Source: Verrucomicrobiota bacterium (lineage in GTDB: Bacteria; Verrucomicrobiota; Verrucomicrobiia; Opitutales; UBA953). From it: DNA of 64,000 nt. Both the position numbers and the translations under genes were made by a program. Below the pieces are notes generated by a model. It did not search any database, had not been told where the DNA came from, and saw nothing but the letters and a program-made list of their open reading frames with translations. The number at the start of each line of letters is the position of its first letter. The first letter of the stretch is position 1. Positions 1,827-58,718 of the stretch are shown here, one piece after another. Location: assembly GCA_016871725.1 (NCBI GenBank), contig VHCL01000002.1, positions 62,001 through 126,000 on the forward strand, written 5' to 3'.

Positions 1827-2390
1827 TCAGCCCTTCAGCTCGGCTTCCTTCGCCTTCAGGTTCTTCTCGATCTCGGCGATGAACTTGTCGGTGTTCGTCT
1901 GCACGTCCTTTTCGGAGCGCTTCAGCTCGTCGTCGGTGACGACCTTTTCCTTGTTGCCCTTCTTGAGGAGCTCGAGGGCGTCGCGACGGGCGTTGCGCAC
2001 GCGGACCTTGCCTTCTTCGGCCATCTGGGTGGCCTTCTTGGCGAGCTCGAGGCGGCGTTCGCCGGAGAGGGACGGGACGGGGCAGCGGAGGAAGTTGCCC
2101 TGGGGGACGGGGTTGATCCCGATGTTCGCGGCCTGGATGGCCTTGCGGATGTCCTCCATCGCGGCCTTGTCGAACGGCTGCACGACGATGTTCTGGGCGT
2201 CGGGCGTGGTGATGGCGGCCATGTCCTTGAGGCGCTGGGTCATGCCGTAGGCTTCGACGTGGACCTGGAGGTTCTCGATCATGCCGGGCGAGGCCTTGCC
2301 GGTGTGCAGCGTGGCGAACTCGTGGGAGGTGTGATCGACCGCCTTCTTCATGGCGGTGGCGCCGTCGGCGATGACTTTCTTGATGTCCAT
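1827..2390 (-). CDS. frr: Ribosome recycling factor
   Basis: RRF splits post-termination ribosomes together with EF-G. The length of 187 residues is normal. The first helix carries LHTGKASPGM, the counterpart of the usual R-T-G-R-A segment. The family segments VQPFDKAAMEDIRKAI and GINPVPQGN follow, and the C-terminal helix is lysine/glutamate rich. It lies 33 bp downstream of pyrH, the classic pyrH-frr order. The start MDIKKVIADG has no in-frame competitor nearby. Confidence 0.96.
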   Translation of the reverse strand: MDIKKVIADGATAMKKAVDHTSHEFATLHTGKASPGMIENLQVHVEAYGMTQRLKDMAAITTPDAQNIVVQPFDKAAMEDIRKAIQAANIGINPVPQGNFLRCPVPSLSGERRLELAKKATQMAEEGKVRVRNARRDALELLKKGNKEKVVTDDELKRSEKDVQTNTDKFIAEIEKNLKAKEAELKG

Positions 2391-2423
2391 TGGATAGGGT
2401 AGGGGTGTCGGGTTGTTGGAAAA

Positions 2424-3158
2424 TCAGGCGACGAGCGTGCCGATGCGCTGGCCGAGGACGGCCTTCTTCACGGCGCCCTTCTCGGACATCGAGAGCACGA
2501 TGATCGGGAGCTTGTTGGCCTCGCAGAGGGAGAACGCCTCGGCGTCCATGACGCCGAGGCGCTTCTGGAGGGCTTCGGCGTGCGAGACGCGGTCGTAGCG
2601 CTTGGCGTCCTTGTGCTTCATCGGGTCCTTGTCGTAGACGCCGTCGACCTTGGTGGCCTTCAGGATGGCGTCGGCGCCGATCTCATTGGCGCGGAGGGCG
2701 GAAGCGTAGTCGGTGGTGCAGTACGGGTTGCCCGTGCCGGCGACGAAGATCACGATGCGGCCGCGTTCCAGGTGGCGGGTGGCGCGGCGCTGGATGAAGG
2801 GCTCCGCGATGCGGTCCATGGGGATGGCCGTCATCACGCGGCATTCGAGGCCCGCCTTCTCGAGGCGATCCATCAGGGCGAGGCCGTTGATGACCGTGGC
2901 GAGCATGCCCATGTTGTCGCCGGTGGTCCGGTCGGTGCCGTTGGCGCGCGCGCCGGCGAGGCCGCGGAAGATGTTGCCGCCGCCGACCACGACCGCGACC
3001 TGGGTGCCGACTTTCTGCACCGCGCGCAGCTCCTCGGCCAGGCGGTCGAGGACGGCGCTGTCGATCGATTCGCCGGTGGCGTCATTGCGGAGGGCTTCGC
3101 CGCTGATCTTGAGCACGATCCGACGATACTTCGGCTTCTGGGAGGCGGAGGCGGGCAT
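2424..3158 (-). CDS. pyrH: UMP kinase
   Basis: Bacterial UMP kinase of the amino-acid-kinase fold phosphorylates UMP to UDP for pyrimidine nucleotide synthesis. The protein has 244 residues, normal for PyrH. Visible motifs are KISGEAL near residue 18, GGGNIFRG near 59 and GADAILKATKVDGVYDKDP near 170. The C-terminus, MSEKGAVKKAVLG, is also typical. It leads the pyrH-frr-sucCD group. The gene reads away from the tRNA-Gln gene on the opposite strand. Confidence 0.96.
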   Translation of the reverse strand: MPASASQKPKYRRIVLKISGEALRNDATGESIDSAVLDRLAEELRAVQKVGTQVAVVVGGGNIFRGLAGARANGTDRTTGDNMGMLATVINGLALMDRLEKAGLECRVMTAIPMDRIAEPFIQRRATRHLERGRIVIFVAGTGNPYCTTDYASALRANEIGADAILKATKVDGVYDKDPMKHKDAKRYDRVSHAEALQKRLGVMDAEAFSLCEANKLPIIVLSMSEKGAVKKAVLGQRIGTLVA

Positions 3159-48612: not shown

Positions 48613-50943
48613 TCAGCGACGGGCCTCCGGGCTGAGGGTTTCGACGTTCAGTCCCAGGCACTTGAGATAGGCCAGCAAGGCGACCATCTCGGAGTCCGTG
48701 GGGACGACGATGCCTTTGTCGGCGAGGGCCTTCGCGATCTCCTTCGCCTGGGCGTCATAGTCGTTCTGGATCGCAGCCGGCGTGCTGGCTTCGGCGCGAT
48801 AAGGCACGCCGAGGGTGCGCAAGGCGGAGATCTTTCCGAAGAGCAGCGATCGGTCGACGTCCTGCTCCTTCAGCCACGGGTAGGCCGGCATGATCGAGTC
48901 GGGTTCGAGCTCGCGGGGGTTGACGAGGTGGCGGTAGTGCCAGGCGAGGTCGGGCCGGAGCAGGCCTTCCCGGGCCAGGTCCGGTCCGGTGCGGCGCGAG
49001 CCCCACTGGAAGGGCCGGTCATAGATGGATTCGCCGAGGCGCGAGTAGCCTTGGCCGGCGCCGTAGCGGAGGATGTCCGGCTTCAGCGTGCGGATCATCT
49101 GGGAGTGGCAGTTGTAGCACCCTTCGCGGACATACAGGTCGCGGCCGGCGAGCTCGAGCGGACGGTAGGGCTTCTGGACGCGCCCTTCGAGCAGGCGGGC
49201 GTCGCCGTCCCCTTTGTAAAGGGCCACGGTGGGGATGATCTGCAGGGCGCCGCCGATGGCCACGGCGATGAGGCTGAGGACGGAGAAGGGGAACGCGTGG
49301 TGGAGGAGCTCCTCATGCCAGGTCTTCCAGGTGTACTGGTTGACCTCGAAGTGGGCGATGGTCGCCAGCACGGCCGTGACGAGCCCGACGAGGCCGGCGG
49401 TCGCCCAGCCGCCCTGGCCGAGCAGCCAGAGGCAGGCGGTGGCGATGATGGCCAGCGTGAAGAGCACCGGTGCGTTGGCGAAGCCCGCGAAGGGCCGGGC
49501 GGGCGGGAGGGCCGCGGCCTCGGCCGGGACTTCGGCGCCGCCGTCGGTCGGCGTGCCGGAGCGGATCGTGCGCCAGAGGTTGTAGACCATCAGCAGGAAG
49601 CCGCAGAGGTAGAGGCCGCCGCCGAGGGCGCGCAGGTAATACATCGGCAGGATGTTCTTCAGCGTCTCGATGAACGTGTTCGCCGGCGCCGAGCCGTCGG
49701 CCGTGAGCTCGTTGAGCGACAGGCCCTGGCCGATGCCGGCCACCCACATCGACGCCACGTAGAAGAGGATGCCCACCATGCCGACCCAGAAGTGGAGGTT
49801 CGCGAGGCGTTCGCTGTGGAGCTTCGTGCCCCAGAGGCGCGGGACCAACCAGTAGAACATGCCCGCGGCCATGAAGCCGTTCCAGCCGAGGGTGCCGGCG
49901 TGGACGTGGCCGACGATCCAGTCGGTGTAGTGGCCGAGCGCGTTGACGGCCTTGATCGAGAGCAGCGGGCCTTCGAACGTCGCCATGCCGTAGAACGTCA
50001 CCGCCGCGGCCATGAACTTGACGACGGGATCCGTCCGGAGCTTGTCCCACGCGCCGCGCAGGGTGAGCAGGCCGTTGAGCATGCCGCCCCAGGACGGCGC
50101 CCAGAGCATGAGCGAGAAGATCATCCCGAGGCCTTGCAGCCAGCCCGGAAGGGAGGTGTTCAGCAGGTGGTGCGGTCCGGCCCAGATGTAGAGGAAGATC
50201 AGCGACCAGAAGTGGATGATCGACAGGCGGTAGCTGTACACCGGCCGTCCCACGGCCTTGGGGACGAAGTAGTACATGATGCCGAGGATCGGCGTGGTGA
50301 GGAAGAACGCCACGGCGTTATGGCCGTACCACCATTGCACCAGTGCGTCCTGCACCCCGCCGAAGACCGGGTAGCTGTGCAGCAGGCTCGTCGGCAGGGA
50401 GAGGTGGTTGACGACGTAGAGGAGGGCGACGGTGATGATCGTGCCGACGTAGAACCAGACGGCGACGTAGAGGCTGCGTTCCCGGCGGCGGGCCAGCGTG
50501 CCGAAGAAGACGACCCCGAAGACGACCCAGACGAGGGCGACGAGCACGTCGATCGGCCAGATGAGCTCGGCGTATTCCTTGCTGCGGGAGTAGCCGAGGG
50601 GCAGGGTGACGGCGGCGAGGACGATGATGAGCTGCCAGCCCCAGAAGTGGACCTTGGTCAGGAAATCATAGGCGAGCCGCGCCTTCAGCAGGCGCTGGCT
50701 GGAGTAATAGACGCCGGCGAACACCATGTTCCCGACGAACGCGAAGATCGCCGCGTTGGTGTGGAGCGGGCGGAGCCGGCCGAACGTGGTGTAGGGCAGG
50801 CCGAGGTTGAGCGCCGGGAAGGCCAGCTGCAGGGCGATGACGACGCCGACCAGCAGGCCGACGACGCCCCAGAGGACCGAGGCGAGGGTGAACCGCCGGA
50901 CGATCTCGTCGTTGTAGCGGAGGGTGACAGGGCTATCGTTCAT
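48613..50943 (-). CDS. ccoNO: Fused cbb3 oxidase subunits I and II (CcoN-CcoO)
   Basis: One 776-residue chain carries both main oxidase subunits. Residues 1 to about 480 are CcoN, the haem-copper catalytic subunit, with RPLHTNAAIFAF, VQWWYGHNAVAFFLT and HVHAGTLGWNGF among the histidine-bearing helices. A linker of about 40 residues with a proline/alanine-rich stretch follows. Residues from about 560 are CcoO, a membrane-anchored mono-haem cytochrome c with CYNCHSQMIRTLKPD (haem site 609-613) and axial Met in IMPAYPW. The start is ATG 50943 (MNDSPVTLRYNDE). It is normally two genes. It overlaps ccoS by 4 bp upstream. Confidence 0.94.
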   Translation of the reverse strand: MNDSPVTLRYNDEIVRRFTLASVLWGVVGLLVGVVIALQLAFPALNLGLPYTTFGRLRPLHTNAAIFAFVGNMVFAGVYYSSQRLLKARLAYDFLTKVHFWGWQLIIVLAAVTLPLGYSRSKEYAELIWPIDVLVALVWVVFGVVFFGTLARRRERSLYVAVWFYVGTIITVALLYVVNHLSLPTSLLHSYPVFGGVQDALVQWWYGHNAVAFFLTTPILGIMYYFVPKAVGRPVYSYRLSIIHFWSLIFLYIWAGPHHLLNTSLPGWLQGLGMIFSLMLWAPSWGGMLNGLLTLRGAWDKLRTDPVVKFMAAAVTFYGMATFEGPLLSIKAVNALGHYTDWIVGHVHAGTLGWNGFMAAGMFYWLVPRLWGTKLHSERLANLHFWVGMVGILFYVASMWVAGIGQGLSLNELTADGSAPANTFIETLKNILPMYYLRALGGGLYLCGFLLMVYNLWRTIRSGTPTDGGAEVPAEAAALPPARPFAGFANAPVLFTLAIIATACLWLLGQGGWATAGLVGLVTAVLATIAHFEVNQYTWKTWHEELLHHAFPFSVLSLIAVAIGGALQIIPTVALYKGDGDARLLEGRVQKPYRPLELAGRDLYVREGCYNCHSQMIRTLKPDILRYGAGQGYSRLGESIYDRPFQWGSRRTGPDLAREGLLRPDLAWHYRHLVNPRELEPDSIMPAYPWLKEQDVDRSLLFGKISALRTLGVPYRAEASTPAAIQNDYDAQAKEIAKALADKGIVVPTDSEMVALLAYLKCLGLNVETLSPEARR

Positions 50944-51107
50944 GGAAGTTCGGTGTCGGCGGAGGGGCGGGCGTCTTCGTCCAGCGGGCGCAGGGAGTCC
51001 CGGTCGTAGCCGTCTTCGCCGCGGTTGCGCTGGTCCCAGAGGAACGCCAGCGCGGCCAGCAGGGCCAGGAGGACGGAGAAGAAGACGGTGAGAGCGAGGG
51101 CGGCCAT
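50940..51107 (-). CDS. ccoS: CcoS-like cbb3 assembly protein
   Basis: A 55-residue protein from ATG 51107, with a membrane helix (about 3-22, ALALTVFFSVLLALLAALAF) followed by WDQRNRGEDGYDRDSLRPL. The helix plus acidic 'DD.......' tail fits CcoS, needed for cofactor insertion in cbb3 oxidases. The match is by layout, not strong sequence motifs. An in-frame ATG at 51158 would add 17 residues. It is first in the operon, and its stop overlaps the ccoNO start. Confidence 0.7.
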   Translation of the reverse strand: MAALALTVFFSVLLALLAALAFLWDQRNRGEDGYDRDSLRPLDEDARPSADTELP

Positions 51108-51387
51108 ATGTCGCAAGGGACGACGCCCTGAGATTACCTTCCGGCCAGACGCATTCAATCCGCGTCACTGCGGCCTTCGTTGCCGTCCGGCTTTCAGGCG
51201 CTTATAGGGGTGTTAAGACAGACGCTTAAAATGGTTCTAAGGCGTCATCTGAAGTGATCTTACGCAAGCCCGGCGGGGTCGAATCGATTGTCCTTTTCAT
51301 GGGTCAGCAATCGTGTGCGCCGAGGATTAGCGAAACGTATGGGGCGATTAGGTCCGCTGAAACCATCCGGATCGCCGCCGCCGAGGA
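51108..51387 (-). promoter_or_regulatory. 280-bp gene-free upstream region of the cbb3 operon
   Basis: No gene is seen. On the minus strand TTTAAG (51225-51230) and TATAAG (51201-51206), 18 bp apart, make a weak promoter about 95 bp before ccoS. I looked for an FNR/ANR-type palindrome (TTGAT-N4-ATCAA) and found none. The rest has no structure I can name. Confidence 0.35.
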
Positions 51388-53741: not shown

Positions 53742-53863
53742 GGGGGACGACTAAGACGACCGCCCCGCCGAGGGCGAGAAAAGTCCTCCGCCGGCCCCCG
53801 GATGATTGTCTCGCCCTGCGGGTCAAAAGCCTCAAAGGGTAGGGCGTGCCCTCCGAAGGACCC

Positions 53864-54568
53864 ATGCGCATCCACAAGTTCCTCGCCCAGGCGGGGGTCT
53901 GCTCCCGTCGCGAGGCGGAGCGGCTGGTCGCCGCGGGGGCCGTGAAGATCAACGGGCAGGTCGCCGTCACCGGCCAGCCGGTCGACCCGGCCGTGGACAC
54001 GGTCATCTGTCAGGGCCAGCACATCAAACCCCTGAGCCGGACGGTCGTGCTGATGATGAACAAGCCGCGCGGCTACCTCTGCACCAATGACGACTCGCAC
54101 GGCGGCCAGACCGTCTTCGACATGGTGCCGCCCGAGTATGGCTCGCTGCGGCTCTTCTGCGTGGGGCGTCTCGACAAGGATTCCGAAGGCCTGCTCATCC
54201 TGACCAACGACGGCGAACTCGCCAACAAGGTCATGCATCCTTCCGGCGGCGTGATCAAACGCTACGAGATCACCTTGAACCGCGACTATGATCCGGCCCT
54301 GACCCCGCGCCTGCTCAAGGGCGCCGTGGAGGACGGCGAGCACCTGCGCCTCAAGAAGCTCATCCGCCACCCGGACGATCCGACGCAGCTCGAGGTCCAT
54401 CTCGACCAAGGGCGTAAGCGCGAGATCCGCCGCCTCTTCGAGATCTTCGGCTTCCATGTGAAGACCCTGCGTCGTTTCCAGATCGGCGGCCTGGTCCTGC
54501 GCAAGATGCCCTTGGGCGATTGCCGACCGCTTTCCCGCAAGGAAATCGACATGATTTTCGAGAACTGA
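53864..54568 (+). CDS. rRNA pseudouridine synthase, RsuA/RluB type
   Basis: A 234-residue enzyme. The N-terminal S4 RNA-binding domain is HKFLAQAGVCSRREAERLV. The catalytic domain has VLMMNKPRGYLCTN and the active aspartate in FCVGRLDKDSEGLLILTNDG. QGRKREIRRLFEIFGFHVKT is the conserved end. ATG 53864 has a GAAGGA site upstream; a GTG at 53846 is less likely. The target is probably 16S or 23S rRNA; RsuA and RluB cannot be separated by eye. Confidence 0.92.
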   Translation: MRIHKFLAQAGVCSRREAERLVAAGAVKINGQVAVTGQPVDPAVDTVICQGQHIKPLSRTVVLMMNKPRGYLCTNDDSHGGQTVFDMVPPEYGSLRLFCVGRLDKDSEGLLILTNDGELANKVMHPSGGVIKRYEITLNRDYDPALTPRLLKGAVEDGEHLRLKKLIRHPDDPTQLEVHLDQGRKREIRRLFEIFGFHVKTLRRFQIGGLVLRKMPLGDCRPLSRKEIDMIFEN

Positions 54569-54638: not shown

Positions 54639-54710
54639 GTGTATCCCTCGCGTCTGTTCGCCTTGTTGCTCTGCCTGACTTCCCTTTGGGCCGGTCCGGA
54701 GACCTCGCTC
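54639..54710 (+). pseudogene. Out-of-frame signal peptide of the first GH16-like gene
   Basis: From GTG 54639 this frame encodes M-YPSRLFALLLCLTSLWA-GPETSL, a convincing Sec signal peptide with a W-A cleavage site. The other three GH16-like paralogues have such a peptide just before their mature domain. Here it lies one base out of frame with that domain, which resumes at 54710 (HKLVWSDEF). One missing base would join the two. Either the gene is inactivated, or a base was lost in sequencing/assembly. Confidence 0.55.
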
Positions 54711-55345
54711 ACAAGCTCGTCTGGTCCGACGAGTTCAATGACAAGGAACTCGACAAGAAGAAGTGGAACATCGCCAACGCCGACGGCGTCCGCATCGTCG
54801 ACGGTCAGCTTTCGCTCGAGATCACCCCGGGCTCCAAGCCGATGTTCTGGCGTGGTTCGAGCGTCAACACCCGGGGTAAGTACAGCTCCAAGGCCGGTTA
54901 CATCGAGGCCTCGATCATGTTCGTCCAGACCGGCGGACACGGCTGCGGTTTCGGCATCGGCAACGAAGACGAACGCCCGCCCTCCGCGGGCATGGGCTTC
55001 AGCAACGGCGGCGGCAACACCGTCGGCCTGGGGCTTTATGTCCGGAACGAAGACCGGGGTCGCTCGTTGAACCCCAAGGAGAATCCGGTCCCCCGGGATG
55101 ACTCCTATTCCAAGAAGTTCCACCGCTTCGGTTTCCAGTGGGGGCCGAACGACTACCGCTGGTACGTGGACGGCCGGCTGGCCTACACGATCCGGATTTC
55201 CCCCACCATCCCGGCCACCCCTAAGCCGATGTACATCTCCCTGGACCATAACCGGCTGCCCGAGGCCGGCCTGCTCAAAAGCTTCAAAGACCCGAAAATG
55301 GGGCCTGAACCGATGCGCGTCGACTGGGTCAAGGTCTACCAGTGA
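54686..55345 (+). CDS. GH16-like jelly-roll protein 1 (subfamily A, 5' frameshift suspected)
   Basis: The in-frame part has 219 residues with only a TTG as start. LVWSDEFNDKELDKKKWNI is the canonical GH16 N-terminal motif. KAGYIEASIMFVQ corresponds to the Y-G-x-x-E-A-R-I strand. KKFHRFGFQWGPNDYRWYVD corresponds to the F-H-x-Y-x-x-x-W segment, and MRVDWVKVYQ is the family end. The acidic catalytic motif E-x-D-x-x-E is absent: the aligned segment reads SAGMGFSNGG. It shares EAGLLKSF.DPKMGPEPM with paralogue 2. The missing in-frame signal peptide is discussed in the adjacent entry. Confidence 0.7.
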   Translation: MGRSGDLAHKLVWSDEFNDKELDKKKWNIANADGVRIVDGQLSLEITPGSKPMFWRGSSVNTRGKYSSKAGYIEASIMFVQTGGHGCGFGIGNEDERPPSAGMGFSNGGGNTVGLGLYVRNEDRGRSLNPKENPVPRDDSYSKKFHRFGFQWGPNDYRWYVDGRLAYTIRISPTIPATPKPMYISLDHNRLPEAGLLKSFKDPKMGPEPMRVDWVKVYQ

Positions 55346-55401
55346 GCCGCCCGGACTTGCTTCCCCTCGGACCCCGGATTAACCTGAGACATTCCCCTTT
55401 C

Positions 55402-56097
55402 ATGAAAGCCCTCCCGCTTTTCTCCCTCCTCGTCGCCCTGTCGTTGGGCGCCGCTCCCAATACCGGCCTGAAGCCGGTCTGGGAGGATAACTTCGACGCC
55501 AAGGAGCTCGACAAGACCAAGTGGAACGCCGGCGGCCAGGCCCGCATCGTCGACGGCAAGCTCCAGATCGAGACGACCCCCAAGGACAAGGCCGGCTTCT
55601 GGAACGGAAGCCATGCGCATACGATCGGCAAGTTCTCCTACGGCCAGGGCTACTTCGAGGCCTCCATCCGCGCCGTGCAGACCAAGAACCGCGGTTGGAC
55701 GGTCTTCGGCATCCGCAATCAGAACATGGAGAAGGTCCCCGCCGCCTCGATGTATTTCGTCTTCACCGGGGCCGACCGCATCGAGCCGACCCTCAACATC
55801 GTCGACGAATCCGGCTCCCATCGCCTCGCGCCGAAGGAGCGGGTCATAGCGATGGACGGCGGCAAGTCCTACAAGAAGTTCCTCACCTACGGACTCCAGT
55901 GGAACGCGACGTCCTACATGTGGTACGTCGAAGGTCGCCTGGTCCATAAGCTCGCGCGCCCGATCCCGAAGGAGCCCATGAGCATCGAATTCCACCAGTC
56001 GCTGCCGGAAGGCGGCCTGCTCAAGGACTTCATGAACCCGAAGATGGGTCCCGAGCCGATGCAGATCGACTGGGTCAAGGTCTTCAAGATTCCCTGA
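55402..56097 (+). CDS. GH16-like exported protein 2 (subfamily A)
   Basis: A 231-residue protein from ATG 55402. Signal peptide about 1-18 (MKALPLFSLLVALSLGAA). The mature part starts PVWEDNFDAKELDKTKWN. GQGYFEASIRAVQTKNRGW follows, then KKFLTYGLQWNATSYMWYVE and the end MQIDWVKVFKIP. The stretch where active GH16 enzymes have E-x-D-x-x-E reads ASMYFVFTG. It is therefore predicted non-hydrolytic; glycan binding is inference. It lies 56 bp after paralogue 1. Confidence 0.8.
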   Translation: MKALPLFSLLVALSLGAAPNTGLKPVWEDNFDAKELDKTKWNAGGQARIVDGKLQIETTPKDKAGFWNGSHAHTIGKFSYGQGYFEASIRAVQTKNRGWTVFGIRNQNMEKVPAASMYFVFTGADRIEPTLNIVDESGSHRLAPKERVIAMDGGKSYKKFLTYGLQWNATSYMWYVEGRLVHKLARPIPKEPMSIEFHQSLPEGGLLKDFMNPKMGPEPMQIDWVKVFKIP

Positions 56098-56122
56098 GCC
56101 TCGGATTTCGCCTACCCATCCC

Positions 56123-56815
56123 ATGAAAAACCTCCTCAGCCTCCTCGCCCTGACGGCCACCCTGAGCGCCGTCAACCCGGCTTCGAACATGAAGCTGGCC
56201 TTCTCCGATGAGTTCGACGGTCCGGCCCTCGACGCCTCCAAGTGGTCCGTCTACGGCGAGCCGACCGCGATGTCCTTCGTGACCGTCGGCAAGTCCAAGG
56301 CCCTCCGCATCACGCTGATGAAGCGCGAGGACATGATCCAGACCAACGGCATCCGCAGCAAGCATGAGCAGGTCCGCGGTTATTTCGAGGCGTCCATCCG
56401 CATGAACGCCAATCCCGGCCACACCGGCAACATGTCCATCCGCGGGAAGGACGACAAGGTGGTGCCTTATATCCTCGCGCTCTGGGAGGGCACCGGCGAC
56501 GACTATCTGCAACCTTGGGCCCGTTATCTTGACGACAAGGGGCAGCATGACCTGCGCTCCACCGAGGGAGGCAAGAAGATCCTCAAAGGCGGCGAGCCTT
56601 CCAAGAAGTTCAACACCTACGGCCTCCTCTGGACCGAGAAGGGCTTCGCCTGGTTCGTGAACGGCAAGCAGATCCACAAGGTCGACCGCATCTCGATCAC
56701 CGAGCCGATGAACGTCCAGTTCTCGCACCGCTGCGGCGAGTGGGAGCGCCCGAAGCTCGTCCTGAAGGACCTGCCGGACGACGTCGACATCGACTGGGTC
56801 AAGGTCTGGAAGTGA
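56123..56815 (+). CDS. GH16-like exported protein 3 (subfamily B)
   Basis: A 230-residue protein. Signal peptide about 1-16 (MKNLLSLLALTATLSA). LAFSDEFDGPALDASKWSVY, VRGYFEASIRMNANPGHTGN, KKFNTYGLLWTEKGFAWFVN and DVDIDWVKVWK give the GH16-like layout. The catalytic segment reads PYILALWEGTG, without the acidic triad at the expected spacing. It shares RPKLVLKDLPDDVD with paralogue 4, which defines subfamily B. The spacing to its neighbours is 25 bp and 5 bp. Confidence 0.8.
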   Translation: MKNLLSLLALTATLSAVNPASNMKLAFSDEFDGPALDASKWSVYGEPTAMSFVTVGKSKALRITLMKREDMIQTNGIRSKHEQVRGYFEASIRMNANPGHTGNMSIRGKDDKVVPYILALWEGTGDDYLQPWARYLDDKGQHDLRSTEGGKKILKGGEPSKKFNTYGLLWTEKGFAWFVNGKQIHKVDRISITEPMNVQFSHRCGEWERPKLVLKDLPDDVDIDWVKVWK

Positions 56816-56820
56816 TCCGC

Positions 56821-57510
56821 ATGCGTCTCCTCTCCTTCCTCTTCCTGTCCGTGCTCCCGGCCTTCGCCGCGGACCCCTCGGTCGGCAAGAAGCTCGTCTT
56901 CTCCGACGACTTCGACGGCGACAAGATCGACGAGACCAAGTGGAGCGTCCTCGGCGCCCGCGAAGTCTTCACCTTCGTCAAGGTCGGCAAGGGAGGCGCC
57001 CTGCGGATCGGGCTCAAGATGAAGGAGGACATGATCCAGACCCACACGCTCTCCACGCGCGGCAAGTTCAGTCAGCAGTTCGGCTACTTCGAGGTCTCCA
57101 TGCGCATGCATGCCGGCGAAGGCCATGCCGGGGCCTTTCGCCTCTCGACCGACGACGACAAGTCGCCGCCCATCATCACCACCTCGTTCCATGGCACCGG
57201 CAAGGAGCGCGTCAGCCCCTGGGCCCGGGCCGTGCTCGAGTCGGGCGCGCAGGACTTCCGGCCCGACAAGGCGATCGGCAAGTTCACGGACATCTCCAAG
57301 AAGTTCCATACCTACGGCATCCTCTGGAACGAGAAGGGCTTCACCTGGTACCTCGACGGAAAGGCCGTCCACAAACTGGAGCGCAAGGAGTTCGTCCGCC
57401 CCATGTCGCTCACCCTGACCCATCGCATCGAGGAGCAGGACCGTCCGAAGCTGGTGCTCAAGAGCCTCCCGGACGACGTCGACGTCGACTGGGTGAAGGT
57501 CTGGAAGTAA
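56821..57510 (+). CDS. GH16-like exported protein 4 (subfamily B)
   Basis: A 229-residue protein from ATG 56821. Signal peptide about 1-17 (MRLLSFLFLSVLPAFAA). LVFSDDFDGDKIDETKWSVL, QFGYFEVSMRMHAGEGHAGA, KKFHTYGILWNEKGFTWYLD and DVDVDWVKVWK are GH16 landmarks. The catalytic region reads PPIITTSFHG in place of an E-I-D-I-x-E type motif. It is the most similar of the set to paralogue 3 and lies 5 bp after it. It could be a lectin-like binder or a member of a neighbouring concanavalin-fold family. Confidence 0.8.
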   Translation: MRLLSFLFLSVLPAFAADPSVGKKLVFSDDFDGDKIDETKWSVLGAREVFTFVKVGKGGALRIGLKMKEDMIQTHTLSTRGKFSQQFGYFEVSMRMHAGEGHAGAFRLSTDDDKSPPIITTSFHGTGKERVSPWARAVLESGAQDFRPDKAIGKFTDISKKFHTYGILWNEKGFTWYLDGKAVHKLERKEFVRPMSLTLTHRIEEQDRPKLVLKSLPDDVDVDWVKVWK

Positions 57511-57569: not shown

Positions 57570-58718
57570 ATGTCCGCTCCTTACGACAAGAACAACCCGT
57601 TCCCGGCCCGCCTCGTCGACCGTCGTCGCCTGAGCTCGCCGGCCAGCCAGAAGGACACGCAGCACTTCTCGGTCTCCCTCGCCGGCAGCGGCCTGACCTA
57701 CAAGTGCGGCGACAGCCTCGGGGTCTTCCCGACCAATAATCCGAAGGCCGTGGCGGCCTTGCTCCAGGCCGCCGGCTTCACGGGCGACGAACCGGTGACC
57801 ATCCCGAAGGACGCCGCCCCGATCGCGCTCCGCCAGGCGCTCTCCACCCGCCTAGCCCTCAACGGCCCGACCTACAAGTTCGCCCAGCTCCTCCACGACC
57901 GCGCGACGGACGCCGCCGACAAGGCCCGCCTCGCCGCCGCCATCGGCGAAGCCGACCCGGAGAAGAAGAAGGCCTGGATGGAACAGCGCGAGTTCCTTGA
58001 CCTCTTCCTGGAGAATCCCTCCGCCCGTCCGTCCGCGCAGGAAGTCATCGAACTCATGCGCAAGCTGATGCCGCGCCTGTATTCGATCTCATCCGCGCCT
58101 TCGAAGTATCCGCAGGAGATCCACCTGACCGTCGCCGTCGTGCGTTACGAGACCAACGGCCGCCCGCGCGAAGGCGTCTGCTCCAGCTACCTCGCCGACC
58201 GCGCCCGGATGAACGAGCCCGACCTCCCGGTCTTCGTGGCGGAGTCGCACTTCGGCCTGCCGGCCGACGACAATGTCCCCGTCATCATGGTCGGACCCGG
58301 CACCGGCGTCGCGCCGTTCCGCAGCTTCGTCATGGACCGTGCCACCCGTGGCGCGAAGGGCCCGAACTGGCTTTTCTTCGGCGACCAGCGCAAGGATCAC
58401 GATTTCCTCTACGCCGACGAGTGGGCGGAGTATCTCAGGTCCGGCGCGCTCACGCGCCTCGACACCGCCTTCTCCCGTGACCAGGCCGCCAAGGTCTACG
58501 TCCAGGACCGCATGCGCGAGAACGCCGCCGAGCTCTGGAAGTGGATCCAGCAGGGCGCTTATTTCTACGTCTGCGGCGACGCCAAGCGCATGGCCAAGGA
58601 CGTCGACGCGGCGCTCCACGCCATCGTGGCCGAGCAGGGCGGGATGACGCCCGAGGCCGCCGTGGAGTGGGTGAAGCAGTTCAAGAAGGACGGCCGCTAC
58701 CAGCGCGACGTCTATTGA
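57570..58718 (+). CDS. CysJ-like FAD/NADPH reductase without flavodoxin domain
   Basis: A 382-residue protein matching the C-terminal two thirds of sulfite reductase flavoprotein CysJ. The FAD-binding part has LMPRLYSISSAPSKYPQEIH (R-x-Y-S) and GVCSSYLAD. The NADPH part has VPVIMVGPGTGVAPFRSF and YFYVCGDAKRMAKDVDAAL, ending in GRYQRDVY as in E. coli CysJ. The FMN flavodoxin domain is absent, so it would need a separate electron acceptor. No cysI or cysH is in the window. ATG 57570 sits directly after a hairpin. Confidence 0.87.
   Translation: MSAPYDKNNPFPARLVDRRRLSSPASQKDTQHFSVSLAGSGLTYKCGDSLGVFPTNNPKAVAALLQAAGFTGDEPVTIPKDAAPIALRQALSTRLALNGPTYKFAQLLHDRATDAADKARLAAAIGEADPEKKKAWMEQREFLDLFLENPSARPSAQEVIELMRKLMPRLYSISSAPSKYPQEIHLTVAVVRYETNGRPREGVCSSYLADRARMNEPDLPVFVAESHFGLPADDNVPVIMVGPGTGVAPFRSFVMDRATRGAKGPNWLFFGDQRKDHDFLYADEWAEYLRSGALTRLDTAFSRDQAAKVYVQDRMRENAAELWKWIQQGAYFYVCGDAKRMAKDVDAALHAIVAEQGGMTPEAAVEWVKQFKKDGRYQRDVY

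Follow-up and report, generated by a model that had tools for sequence, protein, structure and literature searches.

The GH16 enzymes (PF00722), which include laminarinases, lichenases, agarases and carrageenases, are beta-jelly-roll proteins with a catalytic motif of the form E-x-D-x(x)-E, i.e., a nucleophile glutamate, an auxiliary aspartate and an acid/base glutamate. GH16 homologs that have lost the catalytic glutamates are known from insects, and the accessible text on these beta-1,3-glucan recognition proteins (GNBPs) describes them as binding beta-glucan and as having gained an N-terminal region or a carbohydrate-recognition domain (PMC6403176). The accessible part of a study of a GH16 laminarinase reports that SCLam E144S, a mutant of the nucleophile, retained its binding of oligosaccharides in ITC, and that nucleophile mutants show transglycosylation (PMC7961093). 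For bacteria, a report of an array of inactive or pseudo GH16 proteins was not found in literature searches of open-licence papers, and GH16 is not mentioned in the main text of a freshwater Verrucomicrobia genome study, as far as the accessible part of that article extends (PMC5615132).

The window, the whole stretch of 64,000 nucleotides of a Verrucomicrobiota genome that was analyzed, contains four GH16-like genes, g1 to g4, on one strand between an rsu-type and a cysJ-like gene (Table 1). The gaps from stop to next start are 56, 25 and 5 bases, and this tight spacing suggests that the four genes form a single transcript. The surroundings consist of housekeeping genes and not of a polysaccharide-utilisation locus. 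Elsewhere in the window, a single ORF of 851 residues (48613-51168, minus strand) looks, by eye, like a CcoN-CcoO fusion of the cbb3 type, in which a putative subunit II with cytochrome c comes after a putative cytochrome oxidase subunit I.

Table 1. Positions of the array genes and their conserved neighbours, counted from the first nucleotide of the window.
Feature	Position	Strand	Remark
rsu-type pseudouridine synthase gene (presumed)	53846..54568	+	conserved left neighbour of the array, by synteny
g1, GH16-like protein	54686..55345	+	catalytic strand PSAGMGFSNGG at 54980-55012
g2, GH16-like protein, secreted (predicted)	55402..56097	+	catalytic strand PAASMYFVFTG at 55738-55770
g3, GH16-like protein, secreted (predicted)	56123..56815	+	catalytic strand PYILALWEGTG at 56465-56497
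g4, GH16-like protein, secreted (predicted)	56821..57510	+	catalytic strand PIITTSFHGTG at 57169-57201
cysJ-like sulfite reductase flavoprotein gene (presumed)	57570..58718	+	conserved right neighbour, followed by fabG, by synteny

The array proteins consist of one domain of about 212 residues after a leader. The N-termini of g2, g3 and g4 are hydrophobic, and leaders that are hydrophobic and modelled at low pLDDT are consistent with export of the array proteins. For g1, a leader can be read from a GTG at 54639 in another frame than the mature domain, and the break lies within 54639-54720. In eight relative loci (seven distinct ones, because L037 and L055 are apparently the same contig) leader and domain share one frame. 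The apparent break is either a real frameshift or an assembly error.

All four proteins exceeded the curated PF00722 cut-off of 22 bits, with 30.5, 29.1, 36.2 and 56 bits for g1 to g4, respectively. Their matches to NCBIfam models, mostly of glucanases and carrageenases, were all below the thresholds. AlphaFold2 models were generated for g2 (pLDDT 91.8, pTM 0.88, 58-row alignment) and g3 (pLDDT 92.3, pTM 0.88, 88-row alignment). VIA-align placed the g3 model on the GH16 structures 8va4 (Z 23.9, rmsd 2.5 over 202) and 6jh5 (Z 23.9, rmsd 2.0 over 197), the best match of g2 was the GH16 glucanase 6xqh (Z 22.1, rmsd 2.8 over 202), and Foldseek agreed that both models are GH16 beta-jelly-rolls. The array proteins share with the GH16 enzymes the Pfam family, the jelly-roll with Z values of 20-24, the export leader, and core strands of the types FHxYxxxW and DWVKV. 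A misassignment to GH16 is ruled out by the Pfam scores of g1 to g4 together with the fold of g2 and g3. The 3-keto-disaccharide hydrolases of PF06439 (DUF1080) are another jelly-roll family, frequent in this phylum and similar to GH16 in fold class. An enzyme of this type was rejected as the identity of the array proteins, because g1 to g4 had no PF06439 match at E values up to 1. An intact GH16 paralog of the same genome, L003, also exceeded the PF06439 cut-off (28.7 versus 26.8 bits).

In contrast to the GH16 enzymes, the array proteins lack the catalytic motif as well as the Trp of the W-P-A-F-W stretch. The original prediction had quoted the catalytic strands of the four proteins and stated that the motif is missing from each. 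All quoted sequences are indeed present in the translations, and neither E-x-D-x-E nor E-x-D-x-x-E occurs at this strand in any of the four. The register of the strand is based on profile alignments to the structures 5wut and 1zm1 and on the near-invariant residues P117 (97%) and G127 (99%, g4 numbering). A profile of 24 members aligned to the glucanase 1zm1 without a gap at the catalytic strand (PWVEVDIEVLG versus P-s-a-s-l-l-f-e-g-t-G), and its retained glutamate falls on the final glutamate of the motif of the laminarinase 5wut. An hhalign comparison of A4 with the intact set had a probability of 99.9, but placed a gap at the catalytic strand and is thus not informative on the register of that strand. 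Read against 1zm1, the residues at the three catalytic sites are G/G/S (g1), S/Y/V (g2), L/L/E (g3) and T/S/H (g4), which gives g4 a histidine at the acid/base position. The single catalytic acid left is E122 of g3 (codon 56486-56488), which aligns to the acid/base glutamate of both structures and which the original prediction did not mention. A loss of all three acids therefore holds for g1, g2 and g4, which have lost three of three acids, but not for g3, which has lost two and keeps one. As judged from the missing residues, it is very probable that g1 to g4 do not perform GH16-type hydrolysis.

The other two PF00722 matches of the genome have intact motifs, GEIDIME on contig 39 and VEIDILE on contig 7, and thus four of six matches are motif-less. 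With intact siblings (L001 and L003) in the same genome as g1, g2 and g4, which have lost all acids, and g3, which keeps one Glu, the array resembles the insect proteins, which are likewise GH16 homologs devoid of the catalytic glutamates. It differs from them in that its proteins are single-domain, bacterial and encoded in tandem, and because an additional N-terminal region is absent they were not placed in the insect beta-GRP/GNBP group.

The state of the motif was compared in 138 distinct array-type proteins of at least 195 residues, a set from which the divergent L048 and L049 and eight shorter pieces were left out. The full E-x-D-x(x)-E was present at the site in none of them, whereas it was intact in all ten of the nearest domains from outside the order, and thus its absence is beyond chance. 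The aspartate column was not acidic in any of the 138 proteins in either register (columns 121 and 122). The nucleophile column was never acidic in the bulged E-x-D-x-x-E register (column 119), and in the unbulged E-x-D-x-E register (column 120) it contained E in ten and D in three proteins. E at this column is scattered among the relatives (L035, L043, L063, L065 and others), which could be due to retention in some lines or to regain. The acid/base column has D in four proteins and E in about half, and a few paralogs have kept both glutamates (ELFFE in L043 and L031; ELYIE in L092, which is a sister-genus gene).

At the level of the order, the survey comprised 16 loci (L110-L125) and two from this genome, L001 and L003. 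Besides these two, L115, L116, L117, L118, L120, L121, L123 and L125 have intact motifs, while L110 and the fragment L122 are of the array type, L124 contains EMDVVY in one of its ORFs, and the motif of L119 was unreadable. Four loci from other families of the order have a GH16 domain at the C-terminus of a longer ORF with EIDVLD (L111, L113, L114) or EIVVFD (L112), so that their catalytic motif is altered in part and independently of the array.

Array-type genes were present in 43 of the 55 examined genomes of the genus, including that of the window; one of the twelve without them (G007) had matched via an intact GH16 only. In a draw of 273 genomes of the order, the array family (E < 1e-50) was confined to the genus, and matches outside it had E values above 1e-26; G294 and G296 of the sister genus g16 were not among the matches of this search. 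These two, out of six sister-genus genomes, contain a single array-type gene just upstream of cysJ. A draw of 387 genomes of the phylum yielded matches outside the order from eight genomes; the ten intact domains mentioned above were read from them. Named records of the family are mostly freshwater Opitutae/Verrucomicrobiota MAGs, and some are labelled Polynucleobacter or Akkermansia. Phage carriage of the array was rejected, because none of the 39 viral-contig stretches that matched the pattern encoded an array relative at the one sensitivity level applied.

The gene order in the fetched relatives was folD, rsu, one to five GH16-like genes, cysJ and fabG, as far as the contigs reach. Six genomes (G206, G260, G256, G006, G312, G315) have an empty site, with rsu directly followed by cysJ, and in G018 a contig ends with an array-type fragment. 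The completeness-scaled size of six array-less genomes was 1.48-1.83 Mb, versus a median of 2.54 Mb for genomes with at least two copies (Mann-Whitney P 0.0003), and copy number correlated with genome size (Spearman rho 0.36, P 0.011) in 49 of the 55 genomes, uncorrected for relatedness. This comparison set aside G007, G016, G018, G020, G309 and G314, in which no intact array site was found, and matches away from the array were not counted as copies. Lineages with small genomes may thus be able to do without the array, which is no more than a lead, since relatedness was uncorrected. In L045, an ORF of 414 residues (1858-3099, minus strand) contains two GH16-like domains arranged head to tail, of which the first is shortened; this is either a fusion of adjoining array genes or an assembly effect.

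Two quick trees placed the array family in one clade against the intact GH16 domains (SH-aLRT 99), with some joins between long branches. The sister-genus genes fall outside the proteins of the genus, and the fork of 56 genus rows has a support of 93. The motifs of the two sister-genus genes, ELYIE and EIYVAE, contain both glutamates and a tyrosine in place of the aspartate, which suggests a stepwise loss. The tree, read by eye, suggests that the aspartate would have been lost first, then the nucleophile, and then the acid/base residue in the lines of g1, g2 and g4.

Nei-Gojobori omega values of g1 to g4 against the eight closest target loci were 0.06-0.27, leaving out the paralog match of g4 in L074 (53% identity, omega 0.69). 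Against two more distant loci (L071 and L070) they were 0.12-0.57, with g4 again matching a paralog. The flanking folD, rsu, cysJ and fabG had values of 0.02-0.11, and the rdd-type neighbour of 0.15-0.23. The array proteins are thus maintained by purifying selection and are less constrained than their housekeeping neighbours. The prediction that the four are pseudo-enzymes is supported by the sequences. That the change is old and selected and not a decay agrees with its family-wide occurrence and with the omega values, but the acids seem to have disappeared stepwise and not all at once. In the same genome pairs (L054-L074 loci), g1 (54716-55342) has a higher synonymous divergence (0.8-1.9) than the flanking genes (0.1-1.0), for which an older divergence, codon bias or gene conversion among the copies are possible reasons.

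Taken together, the best explanation is that g1 to g4 are tandem secreted pseudo-glycosidases of the GH16 fold that arose from one enzyme gene, lost the catalytic acids stepwise and probably bind glycans, to which we assign a probability of roughly 0.6. The ancestor would have been a single GH16 enzyme gene located upstream of cysJ. Its auxiliary aspartate would have been lost first (a tyrosine in the sister genus), the nucleophile glutamate second, and the acid/base glutamate third in some paralog lines, among them those of g1, g2 and g4, while the beta-jelly-roll would have been retained under purifying selection. The proteins would probably bind glycans extracellularly or at the cell envelope, and the cleft would differ from paralog to paralog. 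The oligosaccharide binding of SCLam E144S and the insect proteins speak for this reading, and the housekeeping surroundings of the array speak against it.

Among 201 positions, the acid/base column takes the 7th rank in the information that separates the g1 to g4 groups. All 17 members of the g3 group have E in this column, 14 of the 15 in the g4 group have H, 17 of the 20 in the g1 group have S or G, and 13 of the 15 in the g2 group have V, T or S, which is compatible with an altered specificity of the former active site. Within ortholog groups the catalytic strand is more variable than the protein average (0.88 versus 0.59 bits), which argues against a single, fixed ligand site at this strand. 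A more far-reaching version, according to which the GH16 gene became a panel of tandem lectin-like glycan receptors by stepwise loss, with the acid/base residue setting the ligand of each and with copies gained and lost, is tentative and on balance unlikely.

It is rather unlikely that the array encodes an abundant basic protein of the envelope or matrix, or a variable surface target for phages or grazers, in both cases with no specific glycan ligand. The array genes are indeed divergent (35-44% versus 83-96% for rsu, folD, cysJ and fabG; L027), their copy number varies from one to five, and they are missing in some small genomes. In addition, the pI is above 8 in 133 of 140 array-family proteins (median 9.18), versus a median of 6.03 for twelve intact domains. 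However, the flanking proteins are basic as well; for the same reason binding of acidic polymers was dropped as an argument from the pI. Omega is far below 1 in the close pairs, a sign of diversifying selection is absent at the gene level, and relatives are absent from the viral contigs at the sensitivity level given above.

It is considerably less probable that g3 and the 66 other relatives with an acid/base glutamate are still enzymes, either as transferases that work without the nucleophile or with help from the substrate or from another residue. Of the 138 proteins, 67 have retained E124 (g4 numbering), among them the complete g3 group, H201 (86%) and E205 (92%) are conserved family-wide, at which sites the two intact paralogs have Q/G and S/E, and the transglycosylation by laminarinase nucleophile mutants, reported in the accessible part of PMC7961093, would be a precedent. 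Yet the acid/base glutamate is absent from three of the four proteins of the window, the aspartate is lost in all 138 relatives, and the nucleophile position is mostly occupied by A/I or S/L/G/T and not by a substitute acid. Decaying pseudogenes or assembly artefacts, to which the apparent frame break of g1 in this assembly might point, are highly improbable, because the frames are open and under purifying selection in many species, the locus recurs in independent assemblies, and decay of g1 to g4 is contradicted by the low omega values of the close pairs and the conservation in many species.

The motif-less array has consequences for the annotation of lake bacteria and for the study of pseudoenzymes. 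Counts of GH16 matches overstate the glucan- or galactan-cutting capacity of these bacteria, as the fraction of motif-less matches in this genome illustrates. The locus is a natural series for pseudoenzyme evolution, with relatives that have both glutamates, the acid/base residue only, or none, and the fixed address, the empty sites and the intact paralogs in the same genome make it possible to test in which order the acids were lost and what each loss entailed. GH16 pseudoenzymes are already known in insects, and the array suggests that here, too, a former enzyme has been reused, probably to hold sugars and not to cut them.
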